This document shows positions 34,195 through 36,864 of a DNA stretch of 49,049 nucleotides, in pieces; positions within the stretch are counted from its first letter, which is position 1; the number at the start of each line of letters is the position of its first letter. The translations under genes and the position numbers were made by a program. The DNA is from Caldilineaceae bacterium (lineage in GTDB: Bacteria > Chloroflexota > Anaerolineae > Caldilineales > Caldilineaceae), in NCBI GenBank assembly GCA_020433455.1, contig JAGRCP010000020.1, positions 1 to 49,049 on the forward strand, read 5' to 3'. The notes beneath the pieces were generated by a model that was not told the origin of the DNA, ran no database searches, and saw only the letters and a program-made list of their open reading frames with translations.

Positions 34195-34589
34195 GGCGCT
34201 GATTATAACATCGTCGGGCGGGTCGGGGCTATGTCGGCAGGGTACGTGAATGCCGACGAAATTGGCGCATGGCCTGTACGCCGAAGCTAAAGACGGGTAA
34301 GTTTCGGGTCTGGCCCAGGCGTAAGGGCAACGCCATCGGCATGGGCCGCGGATACTGACCGGTTCAACCGACGCAACATTGTTAATAAATTCACAATATT
34401 GATTACAAAACGCGCGATTGCCCTATTTTTGCCGGCAAATTATCTTGACATTCCCGAATTTGAGCCGCATAATATGCACGGATTCTCTGATCCTGGAGTT
34501 GTCCAGTCGATCTTCCCTCATCGTCTGAATTTCCCTGCATATTGACCTGAACAGAATACCCAACCAAAATTTATGAGGAGAACACCTAT
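34195..34589. other. AT-rich divergent intergenic region
   Basis: The 395 bases separate the minus-strand glycosyltransferase pair from the plus-strand protease gene. No coding frame is convincing. The right half is AT-rich and holds a strong promoter at 34445-34473, then a leader of about 110 bases ending in a GAGGAG ribosome-binding site before ATG 34590. Confidence 0.6.
34445..34473 (+). promoter_or_regulatory. strong promoter for the secreted protease gene
   Basis: TTGACA (34445-34450), 17 bases, then CATAAT (34468-34473): eleven of twelve consensus positions with the ideal spacer. It faces the protease gene. Transcription should begin near 34480. Confidence 0.7.
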
Positions 34590-35935
34590 GAATTTGAAGG
34601 TAGCCCCCCCCCCCCCATTTTCTGAGAAGCCGATCCAGGTATCTCTATCTCATTGCCATTGTTTTGGCATTGACGACCCTTCTCGCACCCGCCCCAATTT
34701 ACTCCCAGGCAGATGATGGAAGCATTCCCGCAGACGATCCCGCCATGCAGCACAAGGGGGATCCGGCGTGGGACGTAGTTGCCGCCTATGCGCAGGGTCT
34801 TAACGTTTCGTATGAAGAGGCTGAGGCCCGCTTTGGGCTACAGGACCAGTTTAGCGCCCTGACGGGAGAGTTGGAGGAAAAGGATCCGACCTACGGCGGC
34901 GCCTGGATAGAACATGAGCCCGAATTTGGCTTATACGTCCAGTTTGCCGCTTCCGATGGCGCGGCGCGGCTGAAAGCGTACGCGGAGAAGTACCCGTTCG
35001 TTGATCAGGTCCGTGTTTTGCAGTCTCGGTATAGCCTCAAGGAACTTATGGCTATGAAGGACGTTTTGACCAACAGTTTTGCAGCAGCCAACAAGTATCT
35101 GATTTATTCGACAGGGATTGGGGTAGACGAGAGAAGCATAAAAATCACTATCCGGGCGGGAGACCTGGCGGAAACCGAGCGTCTTCTGGCGACTGATTCG
35201 GATTTGGCGACGCTTCTAACAGATGCAGTAGGCGAGCGGGCGCCGGAACGGGTGTTGGATATTGTCCGCGTTGAATACGGCGAACCGGATGTACCGCTTA
35301 GCTACCCCAATTATTACGGCGGAGGCGGTCTTGGTGTTGCGTTGCCGTGTACGCCAGGACTTGCGCTGGTAGAGTACTCTACGGGGGAAAAGTATGTATC
35401 GTCCGCAGCACATTGCCTCCCCAACCTTTCTCTGAATGGCCATTCCCTCGGCCCGATAGTCCACGAGAGAGATTTTGGCCCTCCATATTATTCTGATGTA
35501 CGTGTCATGGATGCCGAAGCCACGGGTTGGAATATTACAAATAGAATTGCGTGTGGAAGCTCACTTTGTGAACGGATTAATGGTTATGCGTATCGTACGA
35601 ACTTGGATCTTGGTACCTATGTCGCGCATCGTGGGAGTATGAGCAATTTTGCAATCGCAGAGATATTAAACACGAACGTAACCGCGCTCGGTAGCTATAC
35701 AGGTTTCGTCCGTGCCGAATCGCCGAGTTGGTGGTGGCCGGGTAACAATCCTGCAGGATGTAAAGGGGATAGCGGGGGAGCTGTTTTTCAGGTTACGTCC
35801 TACCCCTATGCAGATGGTGTAGGGGTTGTTTCACTCGGCAATATACCCATCAATGAAGCTGAAACCTGCTTTAAACAGATTCTATTTCCGCCTCTGGACA
35901 AGTTCCCGAGCGGTTTCCGTCCGCTAACCCAATAG
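34590..35935 (+). CDS. secreted trypsin-like (S1) protease with prodomain; start out of frame across a C13 tract
   Basis: The body, open from about 34617 to 35935, encodes a signal peptide (YLYLIAIVLALTTLLAPAPIYSQ), a prodomain with YGGAWIEHEPEFGLYVQF, and an S1 domain with the triad His in SAAHC (35411), probable Asp in SDVRVMDA (35495) and Ser in CKGDSGG (35771). It should be exported and self-processed. The only good start, ATG 34590 after GAGGAG, reads MNLKVA into a run of 13 C (34604-34616) and is then in the wrong frame; 12 or 15 C would join it to the body. Starts on CTG or TTG inside the body are possible but lack a ribosome-binding site. Either the C tract switches the gene on and off or the base count is wrong. 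Confidence 0.82.
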
Positions 35936-35970: not shown

Positions 35971-36606
35971 ATGAACTCTATCTTCACATTTAACCTTGCA
36001 CAAGACAGGCTGCAATGGCGGCACGGCTTGATTATCGCGGTCCTTGCGTCGATGTTTCTGTTGCTTCCTGCCGTTATTCACGCGCAAGATTCAAACATAG
36101 AGAGTGAGTTTGGCCATTTGAGCGGTGAACTCTATGAAAATGAGCCTGCCTACGGCGGCGCCTGGGTACAACGCGAACCTGAATACGGCTTTTACGTCCA
36201 GTTTACCGTCCCCAATGGTGAAGAGATACTACAGGCGTATGCAGATCGCTATCCGTTCGTCAGCCAAATTCATGTTACTCAGTCCCAATATAGCTATAAG
36301 GGGCTTGAAGCCATATTGGATGTGTTCTGGGACTTTGGCATCAGGACCGATGATTGGAAATTGGTTCACTTAATGGGTATTGGGGTGTACGAGCAAAATA
36401 TAACAATTTTTATGTATTCGGAAAATCCTGTCGGGGCTAAACAAGCCATTGTGGATGATGAATATCTCTTTGTAGCGATGGCTGCAGCTGTAGATGAACC
36501 AGAGCCGGAACAGATTCTAAACGTTATTCAGTTTATATATGACGACTCTGTTCCCGTGCCCCTCGATGCATATCGTGTCCTGCTGCCCATTGCAATCGTC
36601 CAATAG
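35971..36606 (+). CDS. secreted stand-alone prodomain-like protein, homologous to the adjacent protease propeptide
   Basis: A 211-residue protein with signal peptide (LIIAVLASMFLLLPAVIHAQ) and no protease domain. Its mature part matches the propeptide of the neighbouring protease almost throughout: YGGAWVQREPEYGFYVQF against YGGAWIEHEPEFGLYVQF, then RYPFVSQIHVTQSQYSYKGL against KYPFVDQVRVLQSRYSLKEL, and EQILNVIQFIYDD against ERVLDIVRVEYGE. Prodomains of this type fold and inhibit their own protease; a separate copy could act in trans as inhibitor or chaperone. It starts 35 bases after the protease stop with a good GGAGG site and is followed by a terminator, so both genes form one unit. The trans role is inferred. 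Confidence 0.75.
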   Translation: MNSIFTFNLAQDRLQWRHGLIIAVLASMFLLLPAVIHAQDSNIESEFGHLSGELYENEPAYGGAWVQREPEYGFYVQFTVPNGEEILQAYADRYPFVSQIHVTQSQYSYKGLEAILDVFWDFGIRTDDWKLVHLMGIGVYEQNITIFMYSENPVGAKQAIVDDEYLFVAMAAAVDEPEPEQILNVIQFIYDDSVPVPLDAYRVLLPIAIVQ

Positions 36607-36721: not shown

Positions 36722-36864
36722 ATGAACCTATTCCTTACGTCTGCCCTTTCCCGCGAGAGGTACTCTTGGCGCTATGGTTTCCTTCCGTTGCCCTGGCATT
36801 GCTGTTCTTCCTGATACCTTCAGCCCTTCACGCGCAAGACTCAGACATAGAAAGCGAATTTGGA
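36722..36864 (+). pseudogene. truncated and frameshifted third copy of the prodomain family
   Basis: ATG 36722 follows GGGAG and reads MNLFLTSALSRERYSWRYGF; the signal sequence then continues one frame over as VALALLFFLIPSALHAQ followed by DSDIESEFG. That order matches the start of the 211-residue gene (FTFNLAQDRLQWRHG, then PAVIHAQ and DSNIESEFG). Restoring the frame needs one added base near 36780. Similarity stops at 36864, and what follows runs into the convergent AI-2E-type gene. It is a remnant of a third tandem copy. Confidence 0.7.

Follow-up and report, generated by a model that had tools for sequence, protein, structure and literature searches.

A poly-C tract at the start of a secreted protease gene in a Caldilineaceae bacterium: a probable phase-variation switch

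The stretch of DNA analysed here (the window; 49,049 nucleotides of contig JAGRCP010000020.1) belongs to the single draft assembly of a Caldilineaceae bacterium, which comprises 5.25 Mb in 172 contigs and is the one genome available for its species. All features described in the window lie on the forward (+) strand. A sigma-70-like promoter can be read from the sequence at 34445..34473 (TTGACA at 34445-34450, a 17-nt spacer and CATAAT at 34468-34473), and is followed by the ribosome-binding site GAGGAG (34575..34580) and, after a distance of 7 nt, by an ATG (34588..34590); a second ATG, at 34573, shares its frame. Thirteen bases separate the ATG at 34588 from a C13 homopolymer (34604..34616), the candidate frame switch, whereas other C/G runs in the window reach 7 at most. 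The initial annotation had placed a strong promoter, GAGGAG and ATG ahead of the tract, all of which are found; its count of 14 bases from ATG to tract is corrected to 13.

The tract sits between the ATG and a signal peptide, and its length would toggle the reading frame. With 13 C, the frame of the ATG yields MNLKVAPPPPFSEKPIQVSLSHCHCFGIDDPSRTRPNLLPGR and then a stop (42 codons), while with 11 or 14 C it meets a TGA 7 nt past the tract (ATT TTC TGA). Starting at the tract, the protease frame stays open through 35935 (423 codons), and on translation shows a TAG (34601..34603) that touches the 5′ side of the tract. Because of this TAG there is no upstream start in frame at 13 C, and the ATG is joined to the protease frame only at 12 C (or 9, 15 and so on), so that 9, 12 and 15 C would be ON lengths and 11, 13 and 14 C OFF lengths. 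The claim that C13 puts the start of a secreted protease out of frame is thus borne out, 12 C being needed, and to the 12 or 15 C named as joining start and signal peptide a length of 9 can be added.

The gene behind the tract encodes a predicted preproprotease of the alpha-lytic protease type. Its pro-region (34763..35278) is the only part in which the AlphaFold2 model is good, with pLDDT mostly ~60-90 across much of residues 50-220 against a mean of 53.9; Foldseek matches this part of the model to 2pro, 4pro and 3pro, the best being 2pro, the alpha-lytic protease pro region (E 3e-6). The probable chymotrypsin-like (S1) serine protease domain (35333..35932) is modelled at low confidence, and was recognized by searching the PDB with an alignment profile, which matched the Glu-specific protease 1hpg (E 3.5e-4) and alpha-lytic protease (E 1e-3). 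The trypsin domain of the initial annotation is probable from this match but falls below the Pfam Trypsin cut-off (E 0.057), and NCBIfam has no name for the protease. The catalytic triad, described as intact, is clear in its His (35411-35413) and Ser (35771-35773) motifs, while the probable Asp (35495-35497) is assigned from the alignment only. Preproproteases of the alpha-lytic and streptogrisin type have in common with this product a signal peptide, a pro-region of the same fold and, probably, a chymotrypsin-like domain with GDSGG; the product differs from them in its low sequence identity, in a start that lies under a C tract and in the extra, free-standing pro-region gene that adjoins it. 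Homologues in the family, from related genera, are ~30% identical and have ordinary starts that lack the tract.

The adjoining gene (35971..36606) has its own GGAGG-ATG and encodes a signal peptide and a free-standing pro-region, with no protease and no tract; it is 38% identical to the pro-region of the protease (E 4e-34). Pro-regions of alpha-lytic proteases are both foldases and tight inhibitors, which makes it a testable guess that a switched protease is accompanied by a constitutive inhibitor: the tract-less gene may supply an inhibitor or foldase at all times. Pro-regions unaccompanied by a protease are also seen in genome G002 (L068) and in Longilinea (L069). Further downstream is a remnant of a third copy (36723..36860), in which the sequence preserves the signal peptide and QDSDIESEFG, the rest being lost.

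A paralogous start region, 77% identical, is found elsewhere in this genome, on contig C61. It has a promoter (TTGACA-17-TATAAT) at the equivalent place, the same GAGGAG, ATG and signal peptide, and a C10 tract that likewise breaks the frame, which 8 or 11 C would restore; the assembly thus shows each protease copy at an OFF length. The two are paralogues and not strains, and differ in tract length (C13 and C10) as well as in the bases immediately 5′ of the tract. In the comparison of these two paralogues, the n-region and signal peptide HFLRSRSRYLYLIAIVLALTTLLAPAPIYSQA (34616..34711) are under purifying selection at the codon level. Over the 16 codons that lead from the tract up to TTG 34664 (34616-34663), dS is 0.78 and dN 0.03, with 6 synonymous differences and 1 non-synonymous (Fisher P 5e-4), and third positions account for 15 of the 22 differences in the first 120 nt (P 9e-4). 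TTG 34664 is the earliest ATG, GTG or TTG of the protease frame and falls within the signal peptide's hydrophobic core. Since the synonymous excess lies ahead of any such codon, the frame entered via the tract is translated and selected; as ordinary start codons are lacking in the stretch from tract to signal peptide, entry of ribosomes through the tract must have occurred for part of the population's history. The earlier suggestion that the gene is still under selection finds its support here and in the 423 open codons.

This selection signal right behind the tract is the strongest argument against two other readings of the locus. According to one, the tract is part of a 5′ leader and translation starts downstream of it, at CTG 34622 or TTG 34664, making its length irrelevant. 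Both copies do keep CTG 34622, a start at which would yield a complete signal peptide, but neither codon is preceded by a ribosome-binding site, the tract occupying that place; a start at TTG 34664 would truncate the signal peptide, and the codons CAT-TTT-CTG are conserved together with the upstream ribosome-binding site and ATG. We regard a late start as very improbable. According to the other, the gene is a decaying pseudogene, and the out-of-frame tract a random disabling indel in a dying family with truncated tandem copies and a broken second copy. The remnant at 36723-36860 fits such a history, as does the second copy itself, which has an apparent frameshift close to its 3′ end on contig C14, so that some copies do decay. 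Against this, the copy in the window retains its 423 open codons with the His and Ser motifs intact, the synonymous bias begins immediately behind the tract, and a random indel does not explain a run of 10-13 C at the same spot of both starts; decay is quite unlikely to be the explanation. The second copy is split over contigs C61 (end of L023) and C14 (start of L088), with the break at the palindrome ACGAGACcAAAGTCTCGT.

Long C/G runs are found at other places in this genome. Their numbers by exact length are 26 of length 8, 7 of 9, 6 of 10, 1 of 11, 1 of 12 and 2 of 13, such that 10 runs reach 10 or more where geometric extrapolation from the 8-mers predicts ~1.5-4.9 (P between 4e-6 and 0.03 according to the ratio chosen). 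The C13 tract is beyond chance. All ten long runs were read, and nine are placed where one base alters a reading frame or a promoter spacer. Two are the protease starts, C13 in the window and C10 on C61. A G12 on C116 (L029:3849-3860) sits precisely where a signal peptide ends and is out of frame in the assembly; the gene behind it encodes a giant protein of >2,500 residues with CBM9 and SpvB/YD-repeat-like parts. C10 runs lie within the coding sequence of a LuxR-type regulator on C115 (L028:3164-3173), out of frame, and in a secreted FG-GAP protein on C143, in frame. Poly-G is located between -35-like and -10-like elements upstream of related secreted proteins on C17 (G10), C172 (G10) and C6 (G13), a TTGACA-A5-G11 element stands at the contig end of C146, and the tenth run lies in an intergenic repeat on C172. 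Of two more paralogous promoters, the one on C161 contains G9 and the one on C108 an interrupted tract, GGAG7; the homologous promoter copies differ in their tracts (G9/G10/G10), again as paralogues and not strains. Within the secreted-protein family marked by ..FQSPLP.. (L026, L027, L083, L121 and L025), promoters share TTGCCAAACAC-G9/10-TATGCTACACT, one copy having an interrupted tract and the C6 copy a diverged promoter with G13.

These runs bear on two further explanations of the out-of-frame start. The first is an error of sequencing or assembly, whereby the true length would be 12 C and the gene always on. Homopolymers are error-prone, the assembly is a single draft, and there is a precedent in a published reference genome, where a G11 was mostly G12 in culture (PMC9187656); the assembled C count may be off by one. 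The independently assembled paralogue is, however, also out of frame (C10, needing 8 or 11), a slip of one base leaves in place a tract of 12-15 nt that is still mutable, and other tracts of 10 or more stand at switch positions, which makes a simple error unlikely. The second is recoding, in which a gene with a fixed 13 C would yield a constant small share of in-frame protein, either because ribosomes slip by +1 on CCC-C or because transcription slips on the C run. Long homopolymers allow slippage in general, and a +1 shift would restore the frame both here (13 C, needing 12) and on C115 (10, needing 9). The C10 on C61, however, needs -1 or +2 and the tract on C116 is a G run, so a single shift direction cannot serve all loci; nor can recoding explain the poly-G promoter spacers of the same genome, and we consider it very unlikely.

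Slipped-strand phase variation is probably what the C13 tract serves, as a translational switch caught in an OFF length. DNA polymerase would slip on the C run during replication, adding or removing C's. At 12 or 15 C, MNLKVAPPPPHFLRSRSRYLYL... would be translated as an exported preproenzyme of the alpha-lytic protease type, whereas other lengths, including 13, would give a dead-end peptide of 42 residues. ON and OFF cells would coexist, and the protease, if secreted and active as predicted, would turn shared or risky extracellular proteolysis into a stochastic trait, which may be the benefit. The basis of the proposal is the tract, the frames, the selection behind the tract, the tract length of the paralogue and the similar tracts in the genome and its relatives; at the level of sequence, then, the possible phase switch of the initial annotation is supported.

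Recurrence of both designs was examined in related genomes. The pattern TTGAC-N0-8-G10-N0-10-TANNNT was sought in 396 genomes of the class, with the reversed pattern as control, and poly-G promoter spacers were found at 29 distinct sites in 23 of them, compared with 3 for the control. At base 6 of the -35 element, which the pattern does not constrain, 21 of the 29 sites have an A, and 12 have a perfect TATAAT where only TANNNT was asked for; consensus at free bases indicates that the sites are real promoters. Among the downstream genes with a readable start, 14 of 17 encode a hydrophobic N-terminal segment against 14 of 65 background genes, by a crude hydropathy measure and with background from one genome. 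Elsewhere in the phylum such a spacer is present in 4 of 176 genomes, and so is not confined to the class; Longilinea arvoryzae lacks a poly-G promoter spacer.

The start design (ATG-Cn-signal peptide) is present in at least 7 other genomes from other genera (G357, G328, G321, G215, G094, G182/G233 and G114). Matches to GGAG-ATG-C10 were kept only if a signal peptide followed in one open frame; many class-wide matches proved to be chance or junk once read, and the reversed-pattern control was noisy (G107, G143). Genome G357 has ~20 related loci for large secreted proteins (L196-L219), with start-adjacent tracts of C7, C12, C13, C14, C17, C18 and C22, several with near-identical flanks; nearly all of those scored are out of frame, and two copies are identical across a 241-bp query. 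Raw poly-C counts across the family were rejected as evidence, given runs of up to C48 at messy contig ends in several genomes. G runs of up to 48 that end contigs in some family genomes (L090, L095, L097 and similar) are probably artefacts of sequencing or assembly.

We give about even credence to the view that this is a general strategy among Chloroflexota of the largely uncultured Anaerolineae type. Poly-C/G contingency loci would randomize the secreted repertoire through the two recurring designs, the ATG-Cn-signal peptide start and the poly-G promoter spacer, with some genomes holding families of ~20 loci, several tracts of which differ in length; in the species of the window, the neighbour of a switched protease would be a pro-region that is made at all times and may shield cells in the OFF state. 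The best-known examples of slipped-strand phase variation come from host-associated bacteria, where the usual explanation is immune pressure. If proteases, carbohydrate-binding proteins and further secreted products are switched in a probably free-living, uncultured lineage, a different selective force must be at work, for which phage, predators, competition and public goods are candidates, and annotation pipelines would misread such genes as pseudogenes.

The proposed mechanism is the classical one of slipped-strand phase variation, while its host and its scale are uncommon. The contingency loci of Neisseria, Campylobacter and Helicobacter (PMC5084427, PMC8355987, PMC2823697) similarly have poly-C/G of at least 10 close to the start, one length in three that is in frame, surface or secreted products and several loci per genome. 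The present case differs in its uncultured, probably environmental Chloroflexota host, in its alpha-lytic-type protease and in being a candidate switch, proposed from sequence. Pilus G-tracts of Bifidobacterium breve (PMC9187656) are likewise intragenic, and in this non-pathogen their length (G10/G11) joins or separates two surface-structure ORFs; in contrast to the present tract, they consist of G on the coding strand and lie in a sortase-pilus gene, and their length variation was measured in the population. In the Bordetella fim2/fim3/fimX promoters (PMC1891110) a C-stretch alters spacing and transcription, as the poly-G spacers on C17, C172, C161 and C6 may do, although the spacing that matters in Bordetella is to an activator site and here the tract is between -35-like and -10-like hexamers. 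In the collection of papers searched, we found no report of phase-variation switches in Chloroflexota/Chloroflexi, Anaerolineae or Roseiflexus, which is not proof of absence; a survey that includes Dehalococcoidetes (PMC2831843) does not contain 'Chloroflex' or 'Roseiflexus' in its text.

By eye, L142, one of the 3 of 17 products that lack a hydrophobic segment, resembles a response regulator, as does L146, which has a GTG start and was outside the 17 scored. LuxR-type regulators recur among tract-bearing genes, with the coding C10 of the present genome (G000, L028) and with poly-G promoters in G265 and G174 (L142, L146), and tracts in such regulators would make whole regulons phase-variable.
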